DNA of 64,000 nucleotides, taken from the NCBI RefSeq assembly GCF_006346315.1, contig NZ_VDMR01000004.1, forward strand, positions 62,001 through 126,000, written 5' to 3'. Position 1 is the first letter of the stretch. Each line of letters starts with the position of its first letter. Below are positions 7,095-56,000 of this stretch, in pieces. A program made the translations under genes and the position numbers. Source of the DNA: Nocardioides litoris. Lineage in GTDB: Bacteria; Actinomycetota; Actinomycetes; Propionibacteriales; Nocardioidaceae. Under the pieces are notes generated by a model, which was not told where the DNA came from, did no database searches, and saw nothing but the letters and a program-made list of their open reading frames with translations.

Positions 7095-7580
7095 GTGCAC
7101 TGCCCCTACTGCCGCAGCACCGACACGAAGGTCATCGACTCCCGGGTCGCCGACGACGGTGGCTCGATCCGCCGCCGGCGGTCCTGCCCGGCCTGCGAGA
7201 AGCGCTTCACCACCGTCGAGCTCATGCAGCTGACGGTGCTCAAGCGGTCCGGGGCCAGCGAGCCCTTCACCCGCGACAAGGCGATCGCCGGCGTCCGCAA
7301 GGCCTGCAAGGGCCGCCCGGTCACCGACGCCCAGCTGGCCTGCCTCGGCCAGGAGGTCGAGGACGCCCTGCGCCTCACCGGCGCCGCCGAGGTCAAGTCC
7401 CACGAGGTCGGGCTGGCCATCCTCGGCCCGCTGCAGCGCCTCGACGAGGTGGCCTACCTCCGCTTCGCGAGCGTCTACCGCTCCTTCGACTCGGCCGACG
7501 ACTTCATCGCCGAGATCGCGGCCATGCACGCCGACGCCCTCGCGGTCGGGCGTGCGGCCGCCCCCCAGCCCACGGGCTGA
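7095..7580 (+). CDS. nrdR: Transcriptional repressor NrdR
   Basis: ATP/dATP-sensing repressor of ribonucleotide reductase genes. 161 residues from GTG 7095, with AAGGAGA 6 bases upstream. The zinc ribbon has Cys3/Cys6 (HCPYC) and Cys31/Cys34 (SCPACEKRF), with the basic [10 protein letters not shown] segment that contacts DNA. An ATP-cone follows ([20 protein letters not shown] onward to about residue 140). The nrdJ start lies 197 bp downstream on the same strand, past a hairpin. The boxes at 6923 and 6954 predict autoregulation together with nrdJ. Confidence 0.97.
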
Positions 7581-7588
7581 CCAAGACC

Positions 7589-7622
7589 GCCCGGCAGGTA
7601 GTGGGGAAGCTGCCTGCCGGGC
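7589..7622 (+). terminator. Hairpin between nrdR and nrdJ
   Basis: GCCCGGCAGG (7589-7598) pairs perfectly with CCTGCCGGGC (7613-7622) around a 14-base loop, starting 9 bases after the nrdR stop. No U-tract. It may attenuate or process the nrdRJ transcript. The rest of the 7581-7777 gap is low-complexity C/A-rich sequence with an nrdJ ribosome site (AGAGGAGA, about 7764-7771). I see no B12-box of a cobalamin riboswitch. Confidence 0.5.
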
Positions 7623-7777
7623 GCACCACCTCCACCCCCACCGCCTCTCCCCCCACCACCACGCCCTCCCGACGTCCCGGGGGCTCCTCGCGAGCGCCCA
7701 GGGCTGTCGGTGGCGACCGCTTCACTGGACACCGGCACACCACACCCCGCCCGCGGGCCCCTCAGAGGAGACAGCAG

Positions 7778-10687
7778 ATGACCGAGACCGTCAGCTCCAG
7801 CCAGACCGGCCGCACCCCGGACGGCACCGGCCTCACCCTGGAGCGGGTCTTCAGCACCGCGGGCGTCCACCCCTACGACGAGCTGACCTGGGAGCGCCGC
7901 GACGTCGTCCAGACCAACTGGAAGACCGGCGAGGCCGTCTTCGAGCAGCGCGGCGTGGAGTACCCCACGACCTGGTCGCTCAACGCCTCGACCATCGTCA
8001 CCACGAAGTACTTCCGCGGCGCCGTCGGCACCGACGCCCGCGAGTGGAGCCTCAAGCAGCTCATCGACCGGATCGTCCACACCTACACCAAGGCCGGCGT
8101 CGACCACGGTTACTTCGCCACCGCCGCCGACGCCGAGGTCTTCGAGCACGAGCTGACCTGGCTGCTGGTCAACCAGTACTTCTCCTTCAACAGCCCCGTC
8201 TGGTTCAACGTCGGCACCGCCTCGCCGCAGCAGGTCTCGGCCTGCTTCATCCTCTCCGTCGACGACTCGATGGACTCGATCCTCAACTGGTACAAGGAGG
8301 AGGGGTTCATCTTCAAGGGCGGCTCCGGCGCCGGCCTCAACCTCTCCCGCATCCGCTCCTCCAAGGAGCTCCTCTCCTCCGGCGGCACCGCGTCCGGCCC
8401 CGTCTCCTTCATGCGCGGCGCCGACGCCTCCGCCGGCACCATCAAGTCCGGCGGCGCTACGCGCCGCGCGGCCAAGATGGTCGTCCTCGACGTCGACCAC
8501 CCCGACATCGAGGAGTTCGTCGAGACCAAGGCCAAGGAGGAGGACAAGATCCGCGCCCTGCGCGATGCCGGGTTCGACATGGACCTCGGCGGCGCCGACA
8601 TCACCTCCGTGCAGTACCAGAACGCCAACAACTCCGTGCGCGTCAGCGACGAGTTCATGCGTGCCGTCGAGGACGGCACCGACTTCGCGCTGCGCGGCCG
8701 CAAGAACGGCGAGGAGATCGAGCGCGTCGACGCCCGTGCCCTGTTCCGCAAGATCAGCGAGGCCGCGTGGGCCTGCGCCGACCCCGGCCTGCAGTACGAC
8801 GACACCATCAACGACTGGCACACCAACCCCGAGACCGGCCGCATCACCGCGTCCAACCCGTGCTCGGAGTACATGTCGCTCGACAACTCCTCGTGCAACC
8901 TGGCGTCGCTCAACCTGCTGAAGTTCCTCAAGGACGACGACACCTTCGACGCCCCGCTGTTCGCCAAGGCCGTCGAGTTCATCATCACCGCGATGGACAT
9001 CTCCATCTGCTTCGCCGACTTCCCGACCGAGCCGATCGGCCAGACCACCCGCGACTACCGCCAGCTCGGCATCGGCTACGCCAACCTCGGCGCCCTGCTC
9101 ATGGCCATGGGCCTGGGCTACGACTCCGACGGCGGCCGCGCCATGGCCGCGACCATCACCTCGCTGATGACCGGCCAGTCCTACAAGCGCTCGGCCGAGC
9201 TGGCCGCGATCGTCGGCCCCTACGCCGGGTACGCCCGCAACGCCGAGGCCCACCAGCGCGTGATGCGCAAGCACCAGGCGGCCAACGACACCATCCGCAC
9301 CCTGGCCATCGCCGACTCCGCCACCCACAAGCTGGCCACCCAGGCCTGGGCCGACGTCGTCGAGCTCGGCAAGGCCAACGGCTTCCGCAACGCCCAGGCC
9401 TCGGTGCTCGCGCCCACCGGCACCATCGGCTTCATGATGGACTGCGACACCACCGGCATCGAGCCCGACTTCTCCCTGGTGAAGTTCAAGAAGCTCGTCG
9501 GCGGCGGCTCGATGCAGATCGTCAACCAGACCATCCCGCGGGCCCTGAAGAAGCTCGGCTACCAGCCCGAGCAGGTCGAGGCGATCGTCGCCTACATCGC
9601 CGACAAGGGCCACGTCATCGACGCCCCGGGCCTGCGCACCGAGCACTACGAGGTCTTCGACACCGCCATGGGCGCCCGCGCCCTGCGCCCGATGGGCCAC
9701 GTTCGGATGATGGCCGCCTGCCAGCCCTTCCTGTCCGGCGCCATCTCCAAGACCGTCAACCTCCCCGAGACCGCCACGGTCGAGGAGATCGAGGACGTCT
9801 ACCTGCAGAGCTGGAAGCTCGGCCTCAAGGCCACCGCGGTCTACCGCGACAACTGCAAGGTCGGCCAGCCGCTCTCGGACGGCAAGGCGGAGAAGAAGGA
9901 CACCGGCGCCACCACCGAGGCCCCCGAGGCAAAGGTGATCGAGAAGGTCGTCTACGCCCCGGTCCGCAAGCGCCTGCCCAAGTCCCGCGTCTCGCGCACC
10001 ACCTCCTTCACCGTCGGTGGCGCCGAGGGCTACATGATCTCCGGCGCCCACGACGACGGCGAGCTCGGCGAGGTCTTCCTCAAGCTCGGCAAGCAGGGCT
10101 CCACCCTGGCCGGCGTCATGGACGCCTTCTCCATCGCCGTGTCGGTCGGCCTGCAGTACGGCGTCCCGCTCGAGACCTACGTCTCGAAGTTCACCAACCT
10201 GCGCTTCGAGCCCGCCGGCCTGACCGACGACCCCGACGTCCGGATGGCCCAGTCCCTCATGGACTACGTCTTCCGCCGCCTCGCGCTGGACTACCTCGAC
10301 TTCGACGCCCGCTCCATGCTCGGCATCTACTCCGCCGAGGAGCGCCAGCGCCACCTCGAGACCGGCTCCTACGAGCTCCCCGCCGAGGAGACCGGCTCCG
10401 CCGCCGAGCTCATCGACACCCCGGCCACCCCGGTGGCTGAGGTGCGAGGGACGAGCCTCGAAGCCCCCGCCGAGGCCGACGTCGAGACCAAGGACACCGA
10501 GGGCCACAACACCCGCGCCGTCCCCGCCGAGAAGACCCAGCGCGCCCACACCAGCGCCGAGCTCCTCGAGCAGCTCACCGGCACCGCCGTCGACTCGCCT
10601 CTCTGCATGACCTGCGGCACCAAGATGCGCCCCGCCGGCTCCTGCTACGTCTGCGAGGGCTGCGGCTCCACCAGCGGCTGCAGCTGA
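7778..10687 (+). CDS. nrdJ: Adenosylcobalamin-dependent ribonucleotide reductase, class II
   Basis: Makes deoxyribonucleotides using a B12-generated thiyl radical. 969 residues, usual for the actinobacterial form. ATG 7778 has AGAGGAGA upstream. Recognisable are SACFILSVDDSMDSI, the active-site NPCSEYMSLDNSSCNLAS, ASVLAPTGTIGFMMDCDTTG, and a C-terminal zinc-ribbon/thiol tail (CMTCGTKMRPAGSCYVC...CGSTSGCS). The linker before this tail (about residues 885-895, VAEVRGTSLEA) is encoded by DNA nearly identical to an intergenic palindromic repeat at 56001, so a repeat appears inserted in frame. The gene ends at a strong hairpin. Confidence 0.97.
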   Translation: MTETVSSSQTGRTPDGTGLTLERVFSTAGVHPYDELTWERRDVVQTNWKTGEAVFEQRGVEYPTTWSLNASTIVTTKYFRGAVGTDAREWSLKQLIDRIVHTYTKAGVDHGYFATAADAEVFEHELTWLLVNQYFSFNSPVWFNVGTASPQQVSACFILSVDDSMDSILNWYKEEGFIFKGGSGAGLNLSRIRSSKELLSSGGTASGPVSFMRGADASAGTIKSGGATRRAAKMVVLDVDHPDIEEFVETKAKEEDKIRALRDAGFDMDLGGADITSVQYQNANNSVRVSDEFMRAVEDGTDFALRGRKNGEEIERVDARALFRKISEAAWACADPGLQYDDTINDWHTNPETGRITASNPCSEYMSLDNSSCNLASLNLLKFLKDDDTFDAPLFAKAVEFIITAMDISICFADFPTEPIGQTTRDYRQLGIGYANLGALLMAMGLGYDSDGGRAMAATITSLMTGQSYKRSAELAAIVGPYAGYARNAEAHQRVMRKHQAANDTIRTLAIADSATHKLATQAWADVVELGKANGFRNAQASVLAPTGTIGFMMDCDTTGIEPDFSLVKFKKLVGGGSMQIVNQTIPRALKKLGYQPEQVEAIVAYIADKGHVIDAPGLRTEHYEVFDTAMGARALRPMGHVRMMAACQPFLSGAISKTVNLPETATVEEIEDVYLQSWKLGLKATAVYRDNCKVGQPLSDGKAEKKDTGATTEAPEAKVIEKVVYAPVRKRLPKSRVSRTTSFTVGGAEGYMISGAHDDGELGEVFLKLGKQGSTLAGVMDAFSIAVSVGLQYGVPLETYVSKFTNLRFEPAGLTDDPDVRMAQSLMDYVFRRLALDYLDFDARSMLGIYSAEERQRHLETGSYELPAEETGSAAELIDTPATPVAEVRGTSLEAPAEADVETKDTEGHNTRAVPAEKTQRAHTSAELLEQLTGTAVDSPLCMTCGTKMRPAGSCYVCEGCGSTSGCS
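10431..10461 (+). repeat. Palindromic-repeat sequence inside the nrdJ coding region
   Basis: CGGTGGCTGAGGTGCGAG (10431-10448) and CGAGCCTCGA (10452-10461) match 56001-56018 and 56024-56033 base for base; only the few bases between them differ. Here they are read in frame as PVAEVRGTSLE in the linker before the NrdJ C-terminal zinc ribbon. Confidence 0.7.
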
Positions 10688-20500: not shown

Positions 20501-20630
20501 ACCGCCACGGTAGCGAGGAGCGTCCGTCCACAGCCCGGGGTGCGCGAACGTGCAGTGGTCCCAGGCGGTCGTCCACAGGTTCGCGGACGTCGGTGGCGCG
20601 TCGTCGGTGGCGGCGGCGACGGTCTGCGGC

Positions 20631-22961
20631 ATGACTCGATCCCTGCTCCCCACGCCGTCGCCCCGCGCCGCGGTGCTCGCCCTCCTCGCCGTGCTCGCCC
20701 TCCTGACGACCTCGCTCGCGCTCGTCGTCGCCCCGCCCGGCGGCCCGCCCCCGGCCGCGGCGGCCACCCGGGTCGCCAAGGACGAGTGCCGACGCGTCGA
20801 CCCCAACCTGGTCAACGGCGTGTGCCTGCGCTACGAGACCCCGCAGGGCAGCGGCCTCACGTGGATCGGCACCTACCGCGCTCCCGACGGCCGGGTGTTC
20901 TTCTGCATCGATTTCCTCTACGACCCGCGGCTGCCGCGTCGCGCCGAACGGGTGCCGACCGACCGGCTGGTCAACCAGCTCGGCGACCGCGTCGGTGACG
21001 CCGAGGTCGCCGCCCTCAACTACGTCGTCTCGACCTGGGCCGGTCGCGGCTCGACCGGCAGCGACGACCGCGACGCGGCGATCGCGCTGCTGGTCCGCGA
21101 GGTGATGGGCGACGGACGACGCCCCGGCGGCCTCGTCGTCTACCCGGCCGGGCTGCGGGTCGGGGGCGTCGTCCGTCCCCCGGTCGGCGGCCTCGACCGG
21201 CGGGTCATGCGGCTGGCGCGGTCGATGTGGCGCGAGGCGTCCGCTCGGCGTGGACCGTGGCGGCTCTCGGTGGACCTGGTCGGCGACGGCCCGGTCCGGG
21301 TCGGGGAGGTCCGTTCCTACCGCGCTCGGCTGGTCTCCGCCGCCGGCCGCCCCGTGCCGGGCGTCCGCGTGCGGGTGGACTGCGACGGCCCCGTCGCCTG
21401 CCCCCGTACGACGACCACGACCCCGGCGGGCGCGGCCGTGCGCGTGCGGGCGACCGACGTCGGTCGGTTCCGGCTGCGGGTGCGGGCCTCGGGCCCGGCG
21501 CCGGACGGCGTGCTCTACCGCCAGCGCGGCTGGTCCACCCACGGCGGGTCGACGGCCCGGCCGGCCGGCGTCCAGCGGGGGTGGATCGCCCAGTCGACGC
21601 GGGCCCGGGCCGAGGTCGTCGAGACCTCCCGCGTGCGGGTCGCCTTCCCCACCGTCCGCACGGTCACCTCGGCCGGCGTGGTCACCCCGGGCACCCCGAT
21701 CCACGACGTCGTCACCGTCACCGGGCTCGCCCCCGGCTACGACGCGACGGTCGTCGGCGAGCTGCACGGTCCGTTCGCGGCCGCTCCCGACGCGTCCTCG
21801 TGCACGCCGGCGACGCTGGCCGGCCGGGTCACCTGGCGGCTGCGCGGCGACGGCACCTCCAGCACGCCGACGGTCACGCCGGCCGCGGTCGGGTGGTACA
21901 CCTGGGTGCAGCGGCTGCCCGGTAACACCGACACCACCGCGGTGACCACGCCCTGCGGCCTGCCGGAGGAGACGACCAGGGTCGTGCCCCGCACGCCGTC
22001 GATCGCCACCACGGTCTCCGAGCAGCGGTCGCTGGTCGGCCGCTCGCTCCACGACGTCGTGCGGATCATCGGCCTCGCCCCGAGCGACCGCACCACGCTG
22101 ACCTGGCGCCTGCACGGTCCGCTGGCGCCGCGCTCCGGCACGTCGTGCGTCGGTCTCGGGTGGAGCCGCGCCGCGGTCGCCGCGTCCGGCACGATGCCGG
22201 TGACGGGCAGCGGCACCGTCCGCACGCCGGCGGTCCGGGTGGGTGCTCCCGGCTGCTACACCTACAGCCAGTCGTTGGCCGCCACCCCCACCACCACGGC
22301 CGCCTCCTCGCCGCCCGGCCTGGTCGCCGAGACCTCGCTGGTGACCCGGCCGGTCACGCCGGTCGTGCCGGAGGTGCCGACCGGGCTCGTCGGTCGCACG
22401 GTCGCAGACCGCGCGCTGCCCGCGCCCGGCACGGTCGCGACCACGGACCCGTCGCCGTTCGTGCCGGCCCGTCGCTCGGTCCCGCGGTTCCTGGACTCCG
22501 ACTACCGCGCCGCCGCACCGGCCCGCCGGGCCTCGGGCAGCCTGGTCGTGCCTCGGGTCGGGGTGCGGGTCGGCATCGCCGAGGTGGGGCTCGACCGCGG
22601 TGCGGTGGCCGTGCCCCGGCGGCGTGACCTCGCGGGCTGGCTCCGCACGACCGCGACACCCGACGACCTGCTGGGCTCGGCCGTCATCTCCGGCCACACC
22701 TCCGCCCAGCCCGGCGAGCTCGGAGCGCTCGAGCGGGTCCGTCGCGGCGACGTCGTCCGCTGGAGCCTGGGCGCCCGCGCGGCGTCGTACACGGTCACCG
22801 CGGTGCGTCGCGTGCCCCGCTCCCGGGGGTTGCCGGCGTCGCTGTTCCGCACCGACGGGCCGGCCGTGGTGCACCTGGTCACCTGCGCCGGGCTGGTGCG
22901 CGACCGACAGGGCCGGGCGCGGTACGTCGACAACCTGGTGGTCACCGCGGTGCGACGGTGA
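20631..22961 (+). CDS. Secreted multidomain surface protein with a C-terminal class F-type sortase domain
   Basis: 776 residues. A signal peptide or anchor (about 10-45) is followed by a domain with VFFCIDFLYDP (Cys92) and DRDAAIALLVREV that resembles thioester domains, although the thioester Gln appears replaced. Then come an Ig/Cna-like region (about 200-300) and two copies of a repeat: TPIHDVVTVTGLAPGYD ... GELHGPF, and RSLHDVVRIIGLAPSDR ... RLHGPLAP. The last 130 residues are a sortase: His689 in SGHTS, Cys752 in VTCAG and Arg764 in RYVDNLVV. The ATG follows GACGGT by 7 bases. A transpeptidase fused to its own adhesin-like ectodomain is unusual. Confidence 0.75.
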   Translation: MTRSLLPTPSPRAAVLALLAVLALLTTSLALVVAPPGGPPPAAAATRVAKDECRRVDPNLVNGVCLRYETPQGSGLTWIGTYRAPDGRVFFCIDFLYDPRLPRRAERVPTDRLVNQLGDRVGDAEVAALNYVVSTWAGRGSTGSDDRDAAIALLVREVMGDGRRPGGLVVYPAGLRVGGVVRPPVGGLDRRVMRLARSMWREASARRGPWRLSVDLVGDGPVRVGEVRSYRARLVSAAGRPVPGVRVRVDCDGPVACPRTTTTTPAGAAVRVRATDVGRFRLRVRASGPAPDGVLYRQRGWSTHGGSTARPAGVQRGWIAQSTRARAEVVETSRVRVAFPTVRTVTSAGVVTPGTPIHDVVTVTGLAPGYDATVVGELHGPFAAAPDASSCTPATLAGRVTWRLRGDGTSSTPTVTPAAVGWYTWVQRLPGNTDTTAVTTPCGLPEETTRVVPRTPSIATTVSEQRSLVGRSLHDVVRIIGLAPSDRTTLTWRLHGPLAPRSGTSCVGLGWSRAAVAASGTMPVTGSGTVRTPAVRVGAPGCYTYSQSLAATPTTTAASSPPGLVAETSLVTRPVTPVVPEVPTGLVGRTVADRALPAPGTVATTDPSPFVPARRSVPRFLDSDYRAAAPARRASGSLVVPRVGVRVGIAEVGLDRGAVAVPRRRDLAGWLRTTATPDDLLGSAVISGHTSAQPGELGALERVRRGDVVRWSLGARAASYTVTAVRRVPRSRGLPASLFRTDGPAVVHLVTCAGLVRDRQGRARYVDNLVVTAVRR

Positions 22962-22997: not shown

Positions 22998-23981
22998 GTG
23001 CCCGACGACTTCGTGATCGCGCGCAATCCCGACGGCGACTCGACGCTGCCCTACCTGCTCCGCGTCCCGCTGCCCGGACGGCCCGTGGTGCTGAAGGCTC
23101 GCGACACCTGGCCCCGCACCTCGAAGATCTACTGCCACCGGGTGGAGGAGTGGCCGGCCGAGCCCGAGGTCGTCGAGCGGGTGCCCGTGCGCAGCTGCGA
23201 GCGGCGGGGCGCGGCCATCGACCTCGTGCTCGACCGCGGCCGGGAGAACCGCAGCCAGCTCGTGATGACGACTGTCCGCGGCGGGCGGCAGGTGATCTTC
23301 TGGCAGTCCGCACGCACGACCAAGCAGGCGCGCCCCACGGGGGCCGTGCCCCGCGCCCGGGCGAGCGGGCTGCGCGACCTCGAGATCGTGGTCGACACCC
23401 ACGAGCGCTACGCCTGGAGGTTCTCCGAGCAGCAGGCCACCACCTCAGCCGGGGCGCTCGTCGCGGGCGACTACGGGGTCCTCCGTGACGGATCGCTGGT
23501 CGCGACGGTGGAGCGCAAGGGCCTCGACGACCTGGTGTCGTCGTTGACCAGCGGCAAGCTGCGCTACCAGCTGGCCGACCTCGCGGCTGTCCCGCGCGCA
23601 GCGGTGGTGGTCGAGGAGCGCTACTCCCGGGTGCTCACCCTCGAGCACGTCCGGCCCGCCGCGGTGCTCGAGCGGCTCGCCGAGTGCCAGGTGCGGTTCC
23701 CGCAGGTGCCGGTGATGTTCTGCGAGACCCGCAAGCTGGCCCAGGAGTGGACCTACCGGTTCCTGGCCGCCGCGCTGGTGGCCTCGGAGGAGGAGGACCA
23801 CGGGGTCGCGACGATCACCGACCTGCGCGACGCCCCGGCGCTCGAGCCGGCCCCGCCGACGCCGGCCGAGGTGCGGGCGTGGGCCGCGCTCCACGGCCAC
23901 GTCGTCTCCGACCGCGGTCGGGTGCCGCGCGCGGTCGTCGAGGCGTACGTCGCTGCGCACGCGCCGGGGGCGCCTGGCTGA
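22998..23981 (+). CDS. ERCC4-type nuclease with a C-terminal Lsr2-like DNA-binding domain
   Basis: 327 residues. The ERCC4/XPF-like nuclease core is at about 125-230: VVDTHERYAWRF, LVAGDYGVL and the signature VERKGLDDLVSSL (ERKxxxD). VVVEERYSR follows. The last 40 residues (PTPAEVRAWAALHGHVVSDR ... VVEAYVAAH) match the Lsr2 C-terminal domain that binds AT-rich minor grooves. The N-terminal 110 residues are of unknown fold. No helicase is attached. GTG 22998 is preceded by CAGACT at 6 bases. Probable role: structure-specific DNA cleavage in repair or against foreign AT-rich DNA (inference). Confidence 0.8.
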   Translation: MPDDFVIARNPDGDSTLPYLLRVPLPGRPVVLKARDTWPRTSKIYCHRVEEWPAEPEVVERVPVRSCERRGAAIDLVLDRGRENRSQLVMTTVRGGRQVIFWQSARTTKQARPTGAVPRARASGLRDLEIVVDTHERYAWRFSEQQATTSAGALVAGDYGVLRDGSLVATVERKGLDDLVSSLTSGKLRYQLADLAAVPRAAVVVEERYSRVLTLEHVRPAAVLERLAECQVRFPQVPVMFCETRKLAQEWTYRFLAAALVASEEEDHGVATITDLRDAPALEPAPPTPAEVRAWAALHGHVVSDRGRVPRAVVEAYVAAHAPGAPG

Positions 23982-51976: not shown

Positions 51977-52014
51977 GCGGCGAGTCTAGGAGCGCGGCCC
52001 GCCACCCGTCGGGA

Positions 52015-53931
52015 TCACGCGCTGAGGTCGTAGAGGGTGACCCCGTCGACGGTCTGGGCGGGGTAGGTGGCCGCGACCCAGGTGGCGATCTCGCCGTCGC
52101 CGCCGGGGCCGCCGCCGAAGCCTCCACCCCCGAGGCCGCCGCCCCCGGCGATGAACCAGTGGATGCGCCCCTCGGCGACGTACTGCTGGAACTCCGCCAG
52201 CGTCGGGCTCGGGTCGCTGCCGTTGAACCCGCCGATCGGCATCACCGACCGCTCGGTGGCCAGCTGGTAGCCCGCGGCCGAGTTGGACCCGACGGTTGCG
52301 GCCACCCAGTCGTAGGCGTCGGCGTCCTGCAGCAGCAGCGCGGTGACCGCGCCGGTCGAGGTGCTGCCGTCGATCAGGCCACCCACACCACCCTGGCCAC
52401 CACCTGGGCCGCCACCCGCGCCGCCACCGCGCGGCCCGGACCCGCCGGCCGTCGCCGGACCGGCCGAGGGGATGGAGCCGGTGTGCGGGGTCGCCGCCGT
52501 CGCCACGCTGGACGCCGCCGGGCCGGCCAGCGTGGTGACCAGGACCGCCGCGGCCACGAGCACCGCGGCCGGCCGGGGCAGGTGCCGCACGACCACCACG
52601 AGCATCGCGGCGGCGAACCCGACCACCACGACGGCCCAGCGCAGCCAGGGCAGCCAGTCGGGGGTGCGGTCGAGCAGCACGAACGACCAGGCCGAGGTCA
52701 GCGCGGCGCAGCAGCCGAGCACGCCCGCGGCCACGAGCGAGTCCCGGCGCTGCCACAGCGCCCAGGCGCCGAGGGCGGCACAGGCGGCGATCGCCGGGGC
52801 CAGGGCCACGGTGTAGTAGGCGTGGTAGATGCCGGCCATGAAGCTGAACGTTGCGGCGGTGACGACCAGCCACGACAGCATGCTGGTCGCGGCGGCCTTG
52901 ACCGGGCGGCGGCCGGCCCAGGTCGCGGCCACGCCGAGCACCAGCGCGGCGGGCAGCAGCCAGGCGACCTGTCCGCCGTTCTCGGTGCCGAGGAGCCGGA
53001 ACAGCCCGGTCGAGCCCCAGCCGCCACCGCCTGCGCCGCCGACCGACCCGACCTCGTCGCCGGTCAGCCGGCCGAAGCCGTTGTAGCCGAAGGTCAGCTC
53101 GAGGAAGTCGTTGGTCTGGCTGCCGCCGATCCAGGGCCGGCTCGACGCGGGCCACAGCTCCACCACGGCCACCCACCAGCCGCCGGCCACGACCATCGAG
53201 CCCAGCGCGGCCAGGAGGTGCAGCACCCGGCGCCGCCACGGCACGGTCGCGAAGACGGCGTACGTCAGCGCGAAGCCCGGCAGCACCAGGAAGGCCTGCA
53301 GGGTCTTGGTCAGGAAGGCCAGGCCGAGCAGCGCCCCGCCGAGCACCAGCCAGCGCACGGCCCGCTCGGTGCCGTCGGGCTCGAGCGCCCGCAGGGTGGC
53401 GTACGCCGCGCCGGTCATCAGCAGCACGAGCAGCGCGTCGGGGTTGTTGAAGCGGAACATCAGGGCCGCCACCGGCGTGGTCGCCAGCACCAGCCCGCCG
53501 AGCAGCCCCGCCCAGGCCGAGCCGGTCGCGCGCCGGACGGTCGCCACGACCAGGGCCACCGACGCGACGCCCATCAGGGCCTGCGGCACCAGGATGCTCC
53601 ACGACGACAGCCCGAAGACCCGCACCGAGAGCGCCATCGGCCACAGCGCCAGCGGCGGCTTGTCGACGGTGATCGACCCGGCGGCGTCGGAGGCGCCGAA
53701 GAAGAACGCCTGCCACGACTCCGATCCGGCCTGGGCCGCGGCGGAGTAGAACGAGTTGGCCCACCCCGACGCGCCCAGGCCCCAGAGGTAGAGCACCGCG
53801 GTGCCGACCAGCAGCACGGCGTACGCCGCCGACTCGGGCCGCACGCGGCGCCGCGGGGCACCCGGGGCGGGCGGTGGGGTGGCGTCGGGGGTCGGGCCGG
53901 CCCCCGGGCGGTCGTCGGTGAGCGTCGTCAT
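52015..53931 (-). CDS. ArnT/GT39-like polyprenyl-phosphate glycosyltransferase (YkcA/B-like)
   Basis: 638 residues and about 11 spans. The family core TVDKPPLALWPMALSVRVFG holds the catalytic-loop Asp. FRFNNPDALLVLLMTGAAY, SSRPWIGGSQTNDFLELTFG and the C-terminal domain (AAGYQLATERSVMPIGGFNG) match the putative mannosyltransferases of this group. A Gly-rich loop (GGAGGGPGGGQGGVGGL) and a second near the C-terminus are distinctive. ATG 53931 is set by GACCGT 7 bases upstream. It lies 48 bp downstream of a close paralogue on the same strand. Confidence 0.88.
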   Translation of the reverse strand: MTTLTDDRPGAGPTPDATPPPAPGAPRRRVRPESAAYAVLLVGTAVLYLWGLGASGWANSFYSAAAQAGSESWQAFFFGASDAAGSITVDKPPLALWPMALSVRVFGLSSWSILVPQALMGVASVALVVATVRRATGSAWAGLLGGLVLATTPVAALMFRFNNPDALLVLLMTGAAYATLRALEPDGTERAVRWLVLGGALLGLAFLTKTLQAFLVLPGFALTYAVFATVPWRRRVLHLLAALGSMVVAGGWWVAVVELWPASSRPWIGGSQTNDFLELTFGYNGFGRLTGDEVGSVGGAGGGGWGSTGLFRLLGTENGGQVAWLLPAALVLGVAATWAGRRPVKAAATSMLSWLVVTAATFSFMAGIYHAYYTVALAPAIAACAALGAWALWQRRDSLVAAGVLGCCAALTSAWSFVLLDRTPDWLPWLRWAVVVVGFAAAMLVVVVRHLPRPAAVLVAAAVLVTTLAGPAASSVATAATPHTGSIPSAGPATAGGSGPRGGGAGGGPGGGQGGVGGLIDGSTSTGAVTALLLQDADAYDWVAATVGSNSAAGYQLATERSVMPIGGFNGSDPSPTLAEFQQYVAEGRIHWFIAGGGGLGGGGFGGGPGGDGEIATWVAATYPAQTVDGVTLYDLSA

Positions 53932-53979
53932 GCCGACCACGGTCGGCGGCGCGGCTGGGGCCCGGGTCGGGCCCGGCTG

Positions 53980-55875
53980 TCAGCGCCCTGTGAGCCGGCG
54001 GGCGGGCGGGACGGTGAGGTCGTGCACGACGACGCCGTCGACCACCCGGGCCGGGAAGGTGCGGGCGACCCACCGCTCGATCCGCACGGCCGCCGAGCTG
54101 CCGGTGCGGGTGACGGCGAGGTCCTCGCCGTCCGGCTCCTCGCGCACCAGGCGCCCGCCACCGGAGACGAACCAGTGGATCCGGCCCTGGGCGACGTAGC
54201 GGCGGAACTCGGCGAACGACGGCGCCGGGTCGGTGCCGTTGAACCCGCCGAGCGGCATCACCGAGCGGTCGGTCGCGAGCTGGAAGCCGGCCGCGGAGTT
54301 GGCGCCGGTCACCGCCGCGACCCAGGTGTAGCGGTCGGCGTCGCGCGCGAGCAGCCGGGTCAGGGCGGGGGAGGACCGGCTGGCCGTCAGCAGGTCGCCG
54401 ACCGACGGGCCGTCGGGGTCGGCCGGCGTCGGCGCCGGCCCCCCGGCGTACGACGGCTCGGGGGCGGCCGGGGGACCGGCGTGGGGGACCGCGCCGGAGT
54501 GCGGGGTGGCCGCGGTCTCCACGGAGTACGCCGCCGGGCCGACCAGCCCGGCCAGGAGCGCCGCCGCGGCGAACCCGGCCCCCACCGGCACCGCGCGCCG
54601 GTGGGCGTGGGCCACCCGCCACAGGGCGACGAGCGCGAGGGCCAGCACGACCCAGGGCAGCCACGGCGACCACGACCGCTGCGGCCACAGCACCACCAGG
54701 GCCATGACGCCGGTCACCACGACGGCCGCCCCGAGGGTGCGGGTGACCACGGCCTCGCCGCGGTGGTGCCAGGCGACCCACGACCCCAGGCCCACGAGCG
54801 AGGCGACGCCGGGTGCGAGGGCGACGGTGTAGTAGTCGTGGAAGATGCCGCCCATCAGGCTGAAGACCAGCCAGGTGACGCCGGTCCAGGTCAGCCACAG
54901 CACCACGGCAGGGCGTGCGCGGTGGCCCTCGCGCGCGCCGCGGGTCAGCCACAGGGCGAGGACGCCGAGCAGCGCGGCTGCGGGGAGCAGCCACGAGGCC
55001 TGGCCGCCGGACCCCGGGTCGAGCAGGCGGAGGACGGTGTTGTGGCCCCAGCCGCGGCTGGTCGAGACCGAGCCGACCTGGTCGCCGGTGAGCCGGCCGA
55101 CACCGTTGTAGCCGAGGACGAGCTCGAGGGCGGAGTTGCGCTGGGAGCCGCCGATCCAGGGCCGGGTCGCGGCCGGCCACAGCTCGACCGCGACCAGCCA
55201 CCACGAGCCGAGGACCGTGGTGGCCGCGGCCGCACCGAGCAGGTGCAGCCAGCGGCGCAGCACCGGCGCGGAGGCGAAGAGCAGGTAGGTCAGGGCGAGC
55301 GCGGGCAGCACCAGGAAGGCCTGGAGCATCTTGGTCATGAAGGCCAGGCCGACCAGGGCGCCGGCCGCGGCCAGCTACCAGCCGGCCCGCGGCGCGTCGA
55401 GCGACCGCAGGGTCAGCACCGCCGCGCCGACCAGCAGCAGCACCAGCAGGCCGTCGGGGTTGTTGAACCGGAACATCAGCACCGCGACCGGCGTCAGCGC
55501 CATCACCGTGCCGGCGAGCAGCGCCGCGGTGGCCGACCCGGTCGCCCGTCGTACGCCGTGGTGGACGACGGCGACGGTGGCGACGCCCATGAGGGCCTGC
55601 GGCGCCAGCACCGCCCACGGCGAGAGGCCGAACAGCCGCACCGAGAGCGCCATCGGCCACAGCGCGAGGGGCGGCTTGTCGACCGTGACCGACCCGGCGG
55701 CGTCGAAGGAGCCGAAGAAGAACGCCTGCCACGACTCGCTGCCCGCCTGGACCGCGGCGGTGTAGTAGGCGTTGGCCCAGCCCGAGGCGCCCAGGCCCCA
55801 CAGGTAGAGCACCGCGGTCGCGAGGAGGAGCACCGCGAGCGGCGGGACGCGGCGCAGGCGACGGAGGTCGGGCAT
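53980..55875 (-). pseudogene. Second GT39-like glycosyltransferase, interrupted by an in-frame TAG
   Basis: Paralogue of the 52015-53931 gene, about 630 codons if read through. The first 166 residues (MPDLRRLRRVPPLAVLLLAT; TVDKPPLALWPMALSVRLFG) end at TAG 55375-55377. The frame continues unbroken on the other side (LAAAGALVGLAFMTKMLQAF ... FNGTDPAPSFAEFRRYV) to 53980. No frameshift is needed, so one base change would restore it. ATG 55338 could restart a 452-residue product without the catalytic N-terminus. ATG 55875 is preceded by CACGCT. Recent nonsense mutation, base-call error or readthrough are the options. Confidence 0.8.
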
Positions 55876-56000
55876 GGCCTCAGCGTGGACCCAGCGAACC
55901 CCGGCCGACCACGCCGCGCAGCCCCTTTCACCCCCTCGACCCGGAAGATTTCCTGGTCGTTGGGGAACGGTTCAGCCGGCGCTCAGGATGCACCCCGGAG

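Follow-up and report, generated by a model that had tools for sequence, protein, structure and literature searches.

Sortases and their substrates are normally separate proteins, and a gene that encodes both in one polypeptide raises the question of what such an enzyme acts on. This question is posed by a gene at 20631..22961 on the plus strand of a 64,000-nucleotide stretch of Nocardioides litoris DNA (contig NZ_VDMR01000004.1, positions 62,001 to 126,000; this whole stretch is called the window here). The coding sequence is a single open frame for a secreted protein of 776 amino acids (stop codon at 22959-22961), which agrees with an initial annotation in frame, length and coordinates; the start is uncertain, as an in-frame upstream GTG at 20550 is an alternative that would give 803 amino acids. 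From the N-terminus, the protein comprises a signal peptide, a thioester-like head, an immunoglobulin (Ig)-like domain, two TQ/VaFE-like repeats, a linker of about 60 residues and a sortase. We consider it likely that a surface protein and a dedicated sortase have been fused in this gene, yielding a self-sorting surface protein that would be cut in its own linker and passed to the wall or to a partner amine.

The sortase is joined to the adhesin-like ectodomain in one reading frame, as had been proposed. A frameshift or assembly artefact connecting two genes is ruled out, since orthologues in many assemblies, including the ten other rows of the orthologue alignment (A1), are single open frames. 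The host genome is Nocardioides or close to it, 11 loci having been found in the named genome collection under labels of Nocardioides species or of metagenome-assembled genomes assigned to Nocardioides, Marmoricola or Pimelobacter. At 10 of these 11 loci, the same domain order is kept in one frame with two or three repeats, and the aligned sequences are 50-69% identical; at L039, the remaining locus, the gene is split (see below). The genome of the window itself carries a single copy of the fusion gene.

The C-terminal sortase (residues 634-776; 22530..22958, plus strand) is complete. PF04203 (Sortase) matches residues 638-774, nearly the whole model length, with an expectation value (E) of 6.6e-12 and 45.7 bits against a cut-off of 26.6, and is also matched in 11/11 orthologues and in 21 of 22 members of a module alignment (E up to 1) that consists of the last repeat, the linker and the sortase from 22 fusions. 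The predicted structure contains a sortase barrel: residues 633-776 of the model align with sortase A over 118 residues (VIA Z 15.2, root-mean-square deviation 2.1), with stretches of low confidence within the sortase at 651-675 and 679-695. His689 (22695-22697), Cys752 (22884-22886) and Arg764, which had been named for the sortase, are located as described. His and Cys are each retained in 80 of 81 fused rows, but residue 764 is Arg in only 4 of the 81 and was rejected as catalytic for its poor conservation. This set of 81 comprises fusions in which a TQ-like domain precedes the barrel; rows that were identical over their last 200 residues were dropped, and residue counts refer to rows above 60 bits (81 fused and 27 others). 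Position 730 is basic in all 81 fused rows (76 Arg, 5 Lys) and in 26 of the 27 other rows, and Arg730 (22818-22820) is at most a candidate for the catalytic Arg. All 22 module members match the NCBI class F model NF033748 at E 0.01 or better; a phmmer search started from a single free-standing class F-like domain yielded no relative of solved structure at E 0.01.

The candidate target of this enzyme is located in the linker, where the protein reads P-E-V-P-T-G. The sorting-like motif EVPTG (residues 581-585; 22371..22385, plus strand), with a predicted cut between Thr584 and Gly585, resembles LPxTG without being a strict LPxTG motif and is placed after the last folded domain. Pro580, Glu581 and Gly585 are invariant in 11 orthologues, in which much of the remaining linker is gapped. 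Motifs of this kind are present in all 81 fusions: [VIL]-x-[TSGA]-G is found in the linker of 80, and the remaining one, RFETG, is covered if Phe is allowed. Directly before the motif Gly, Thr is the commonest residue (48 fusions), followed by Gly (20), Ser (10) and Ala (3); three positions before it, Val (48) and Ile (32) account for all but one fusion, which has Phe. Shuffled linkers yield the motif in 21.4 of 81 on average and in 38 at most (1000 shuffles), and when the set is thinned to 70% sortase identity, the motif is kept in 40/40, compared with a shuffled mean of 11.1 and a largest value of 21 (2000 shuffles). Measured from where the TQ match ends, the motif Gly follows at a distance of 6-24 residues (11 or 12 in 60/80), while its distance to the start of the sortase match is 12-104 residues. 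Fusions in five genomes of other classes have IQTG, INTG, ISTG, IATG and ILTG. By comparison, 3 of 29 sortase frames without an upstream TQ domain have the motif; these 29 include two split sortases, L039 and L140, and two rows that score below 60 bits. The window protein is not a classical LPxTG protein, because the motif is not followed by a hydrophobic stretch and basic tail: no 19-residue segment starting past residue 50 exceeds a hydropathy of 1.19, compared with a maximum of 2.75 in the segment starting at residue 15.

Split versions of the gene indicate to which partner the motif belongs. When 341 family genomes were searched with the full alignment, 22 gave matches at E 1e-50, and at eight loci the frame is divided into adjacent or overlapping genes for a surface protein and a sortase. 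Seven of these loci are in a sister genus, g10 (L039/L188, L140/L190, L185, L186, L187, L189 and L193), of which one genome, G322, carries the fused form; the eighth (L191) is in the own genus. For L039/L188, the protein ends in the public record and in G865 are identical. At all eight loci, the surface protein ends shortly after the motif, by 7-19 residues (51 in one), with EIPSG in six, DIPTG in one and VPAG in one; examples of such ends are VPEIPSG-PASRGRR and VPEIPSG-PFSDGTR. In L187 (G866), the tail after EIPSG resembles that of an ordinary sorting signal, with a hydrophobic stretch and then RARRRR. By eye, the separate sortase has a hydrophobic or lipobox-like start of its own, which fusion linkers lack; a block like the PxRRxxPR[FY]L..DY block at residues 612-627 of the window protein (22464..22511, plus strand) stays with the sortase in orthologous split versions. 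The layout common to eight loci and these separate starts rule out sequencing errors as the origin of the split loci. The fusions thus look like fusions of a substrate gene with a sortase gene, since the motif is on the substrate side in the split loci. The suggestion in the initial annotation that the protein could attach itself is thereby backed by two findings, the conserved sorting-like linker motif and the split versions of the same gene. As a side observation, the split sortases L185, L186 and L193 start with lipobox-like sequences (TACG, TACG and AGCG, by eye) and may be lipoproteins, which would be an unusual anchor for a sortase.

The linker motif might instead be a structural or regulatory element of the enzyme, for example a lid that blocks the active site, comparable to that at the N-terminus of class C sortases, rather than a site of cleavage. 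Pilus sortases are known to have lids, and the alignment of some class C sortases with the model begins at residue 574-581 and takes in the stretch that holds the motif; however, these model residues have predicted local distance difference test (pLDDT) values below 50, and the class C alignment was therefore given no weight. Further points against a lid are the distance between motif and barrel, which varies from 12 to 104 residues, the rarity of the motif in frames without an upstream TQ domain (3 of 29) and its location on the other polypeptide in 8/8 split loci. The gene boundary falls between motif and enzyme, and therefore the motif is part of the substrate rather than a lid of the enzyme. 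We give the lid explanation very little credence.

Alternatively, the ectodomain might only place the enzyme at the wall or at the surface of a partner, and the tethered sortase would act in trans on other proteins, such as the ordinary LPxTG proteins of the genome. The usual separation of sortases and substrates is in line with this explanation, as are three proteins of the genome with LPGTG or LPDTG followed by a hydrophobic stretch and a basic tail, one of which is over Pfam's cut-off. On the same side is the scan of window frames of at least 60 codons for motif, hydrophobic stretch and basic tail, which found no sorting-signal protein and bears out the earlier statement that no LPxTG protein lies nearby; none of the nine neighbouring window proteins scanned resembles a sorting partner. 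On the other hand, four further sortase matches are present in the genome, all 81 fusions examined retain the linker motif, which goes with the ectodomain, not with the enzyme, in 8/8 split loci, and up to seven genes with the full module are present per genome (G216), which would be superfluous for a shared enzyme. Action in trans as the main role of the fusion thus appears unlikely. Separately, a classical LPGTG signal in the own genome (L067; G000:C13:116438-116551, minus strand) ends an open frame of 8010 codons, which may encode a giant repeat surface protein.

For a self-sorting surface protein, the following process is the most likely. The walls of Nocardioides contain an LL-diaminopimelate-glycine bridge. 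The protein would be exported by its N-terminal signal peptide, and the head, the Ig-like domain and the TQ-like stalk would fold outside the cell. Cys752 of the built-in class F-like sortase would then attack the linker motif E-V-P-T584-G585, in cis or on a sister molecule, and form a thioester with Thr584, from which the ectodomain would be handed to an amine, most likely of the peptidoglycan cross-bridge and possibly that of a lysine of a neighbouring molecule. The architecture and its conservation, the motif, the split versions and the retained His and Cys are observed; cleavage, the position of the bond, action in cis and the acceptor are what we infer here. The hydrophobic anchor and basic tail of the usual sorting signal would not be needed, because enzyme and substrate are tethered; by the same tether, each enzyme would therefore serve roughly one substrate.

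Several points weigh against this explanation. The NF033748 score is 60.3 bits, far below the curated cut-off of 166, and the enzyme is for this reason called class F-like only; its catalytic Arg could not be assigned from conservation. The proline of the motif is not at the usual place of that in LPxTG, and the Thr position is Gly in 20/81 fusions. The motif pattern was written after the alignment had been seen and the sequences share ancestry, and a phylogeny-corrected test of motif versus fusion has one independent pair and hence no power. The linker has pLDDT below 50 in both predictions, so that docking of the motif in the active site is neither seen nor excluded. In one fused copy, L062 (G029), neither His nor Cys is left although VTTG is retained, and cis action is thus not required everywhere. 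Also, Actinoplanes reportedly showed no phenotype when its four free class F sortases were all deleted (PMC13251363). In the L062 copy itself (about 7465-8424 on the plus strand of G029:C21), His is replaced by Gln and Cys by Lys, and the same genome has another fusion with His and Cys intact.

The same architecture is widespread in related genomes, and the window gene is one of many fusions in the genus rather than a singular oddity. The module alignment matched 166 of 196 genus genomes at E 1e-15, free-standing sortases included, and at least 88 fusion genes in at least 44 of the 196 genomes have matches spanning the TQ domain and the sortase (E 4.1e-68 or better); these two numbers are hand counts from only some candidates scored per genome and are therefore lower bounds. 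Fusion frames in the genus range from 402 to 2103 codons, with up to seven in one genome (G216). In a sample of the order, 28/293 genomes matched at E 1e-38, belonging to 3 of 37 genera, all of the same family. Of 396 genomes sampled across the phylum, 18 matched at E 1e-30. One is the own genome; five belong to other classes and carry the full module in frames of 636 to 1329 codons, and the remaining twelve show no TQ match. Recognisable ectodomain families were found in 5 of 7 fused proteins scanned, among them a thioester domain, DUF11/DUF7507, SdrD_B and NHL with Big_9, together with a lectin-like match below its cut-off. The TQ-linker-sortase end is thus placed on many kinds of surface protein, because the ectodomains differ.

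A tree of 116 sortase domains (83 fused, 8 split and 25 free) was built from rows of at least 110 residues over 148 columns, which is a short alignment. All 8 split rows and 78 of the fused rows are on one side of a branch with support of 100/100, and the five fused rows of other classes are on the side of the free sortases, where they form a group with support of 100/91. Long branches lead to the split rows L191 and L193. On supported branches, at least 4 changes of the fused label are required; the fused state has thus changed several times, through fusion or separation.

The acceptor of the predicted transfer might be suggested by a single residue. Lys50 (20778-20780), near the mature N-terminus, is the sole lysine among 776 residues, compared with 99 arginines. 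It is kept in 10/11 A1 rows and, by eye, in L178 and L183, i.e., in 12 of 13 fused orthologues (not in L037), and is absent from 5/6 orthologous split proteins. This conservation pattern makes a lysine-linked polymer a serious side possibility. In a self-assembling one-gene pilus, Lys50 of the next molecule would resolve the acyl-enzyme to give a head-to-tail polymer in which every subunit has its own sortase, and EVPTG is indeed a pilus motif (see below). The fused orthologue that lacks Lys50 is not explained by such a pilus, nor does the protein contain a YPK pilin motif, the lookalike VVYPxGL having no lysine after YP in 11/11 orthologues; as the explanation of the gene, a pilus looks decidedly improbable. 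A bolder proposal combines a one-gene self-assembling fibre, with its single-use sortase and Lys50 as acceptor of Thr584 of the next molecule, with a broader replacement, in Nocardioides and some other actinobacterial classes, of the sorting-signal tail by a sortase on dozens of surface proteins. We see a small but appreciable chance for this proposal.

Upstream of the repeats, the signal peptide spans residues 1-45 (20631..20765, plus strand), with a cleavage site near A45 inferred by eye, and is the only membrane-like stretch of the protein. The first part of the head, residues 46-208 (20766..21254, plus strand), contains residues invariant across the 11 orthologues of A1, including the cysteines Cys53, Cys65 and Cys92. 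Cys92 (20904-20906) is located in FFCID, and F91-C92-I93-D94 fits [YFL]C-hydrophobic-hydrophilic, the bond-forming Cys motif of thioester domains (PMC6194298). An Ig-like domain, seen as beta strands in the predicted model, is inserted at about residues 209-292 (21255..21506, plus strand); it has a weak profile match to 3idu/2kl6 (E about 0.5), and Big_1 is matched in 1/11 orthologues (E 0.02). Behind this insert, residues 310-325 (21558..21605, plus strand) include the invariant QRGWIAQ, in which Gln315 (21573-21575), 223 residues after Cys92, is the candidate thioester partner. Gln315 is invariant in 11/11 orthologues, and the Gln of QRG is kept in 11/11 further relatives, split ones included, the Cys-Gln distance being 203-223 residues in these relatives and 203-226 over all 22 rows; Gln321, unlike Gln315, is not always kept. 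The Gln of class II thioester domains is contributed by a hairpin that follows an inserted beta-sandwich; two solved cases have it 171 and 204 residues past the Cys (PMC6194298).

The annotated thioester-like N-terminal domain thus gains support from the invariant Cys92 and the class II-like spacing to Gln315, but not from profiles: Pfam thioester domain PF08341 has no match in the window protein up to E 10, and hhalign of the head to the true thioester domain of L063 gives a probability of 1%. VQRGW matches the weak published Gln pattern only partly, and the TQxx-hydrophobic-W helix of thioester domains does not occur, the helix here reading DDRDAAIALLV. This DDRDAAIAL helix was considered as proof against thioester formation and dropped, as the bond-forming Gln sits elsewhere (PMC6194298). 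The head is called thioester-like only, and a Cys92-Gln315 thioester is probable as a prediction from these residues.

The stalk consists of repeat 1, at about residues 338-455 (21642..21995, plus strand), and repeat 2, at about residues 456-573 (21996..22349, plus strand). Both are recognised by an own TQ profile, repeat 1 with block means of pLDDT of 75-95 and repeat 2 also by the predicted model and alignments. The units DVVTVTGLAPG and DVVRIIGLAPS, which had been noticed before, are real; the repeats are TQ/VaFE-like with a conserved cysteine pair in each (Cys391/Cys442 and Cys506/Cys542), not Cna-like as first described. PF18202 (T-Q ester bond domain) has a profile match in 2/11 orthologues, with a best E of 0.013, and by eye the repeats contain no T-Q ester glutamine. 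The structure matches listed by VIA are taken up by sortase and include no thioester or TQ fold, from which the absence of such folds does not follow.

Neighbours are partly conserved among the orthologous loci and include a phosphatase, a gamma-glutamyltransferase, an ERCC4-Lsr2 protein and a DksA-like protein; the gene is considered a stable chromosomal gene, because some neighbours are kept in part of the loci. Relative to six orthologues, the ratio of nonsynonymous to synonymous substitution rates is 0.29-0.45 for the head and 0.42-0.86 for the sortase, a range that says little. The ERCC4-Lsr2 protein, encoded downstream of the fusion at 22998-23978 (plus strand), combines an ERCC4 nuclease and an Lsr2 DNA-binding domain in one protein and is near the fusion gene in 4/11 orthologous loci. 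Elsewhere in the window, 52001-56000 has an AT skew of 0.24-0.30 over 4 kb, the highest of the window.

A self-sorting surface protein, if correct, would break the rule of separate anchoring for sortases and the proteins they process: enzyme and substrate would be produced in a 1:1 ratio, with a tether instead of a membrane tail keeping them together. The physiological roles of class F sortases are reported as unknown (PMC13251363), and the fusions would provide clear candidate substrates for relatives of this class. They would also be natural candidates for self-cleaving ligases with unusual motifs (VDTG, IETG and EVPTG). As split and fused versions of one gene exist, the hypothesis of self-sorting is directly testable.

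Comparison with known systems places the individual parts. Class F sortases of the Propionibacterium/Cutibacterium acnes type, which are free-standing in actinobacteria, have the sortase barrel, the His and the Cys in common with the window protein, whereas the window sortase is C-terminal to a large ectodomain, has no transmembrane anchor of its own and remains below the cut-off of NF033748; the linker motif is lacking in 26 of the 29 sortase frames without an upstream TQ domain. The sorting motifs of streptococcal pili are followed by a classical tail. These motifs include EVPTG, VVPTG and QVPTG; EVPTG, that of the group A streptococcal pilus protein Cpa, is identical to the window pentapeptide and is read there by a separate pilus sortase (PMC7900414). 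LPxTG-anchored adhesins with thioester, isopeptide and ester domains (TIE adhesins) likewise have a secreted beta-domain stalk, a thioester-like head and a sorting-like motif past the last domain (PMC6194298); in the window protein, the sortase replaces the hydrophobic stretch and basic tail, and the repeats have cysteine pairs instead of an evident T-Q ester glutamine.

Precedents exist for single steps of self-sorting. A parallel to the split loci is the AbpA/SrtB locus of oral streptococci, in which a motif with a very short tail is encoded beside a dedicated sortase gene: AbpA ends in LPKTS-AVK, a three-residue tail, and is cleaved between T and S by the sortase of the same locus (PMC4974636). 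That system differs from the window protein in having two genes, a class B sortase and LPKTS (PMC4974636). Sortase and motif are combined in one polypeptide in the engineered BISOP tags, and such sortase-LPETG-protein fusions cleave themselves (PMC2901362); self-cleavage is observed there and predicted here, and the tags are man-made with an N-terminal sortase, in contrast to the natural protein with its C-terminal sortase. A survey of isopeptide-bonded proteins sought sortase motifs only in the last 50 residues (PMC12617251), and such surveys would miss fused wall proteins, because their motif is not within the last 50 residues. In searches of open-access full texts, no published description of a natural substrate-sortase fusion was recognised, nor was a cis mode of sortase anchoring found described. 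Overall, the parts of the window protein are of known kinds, and the recurrent fusion cassette and the tail-less anchoring would be new.

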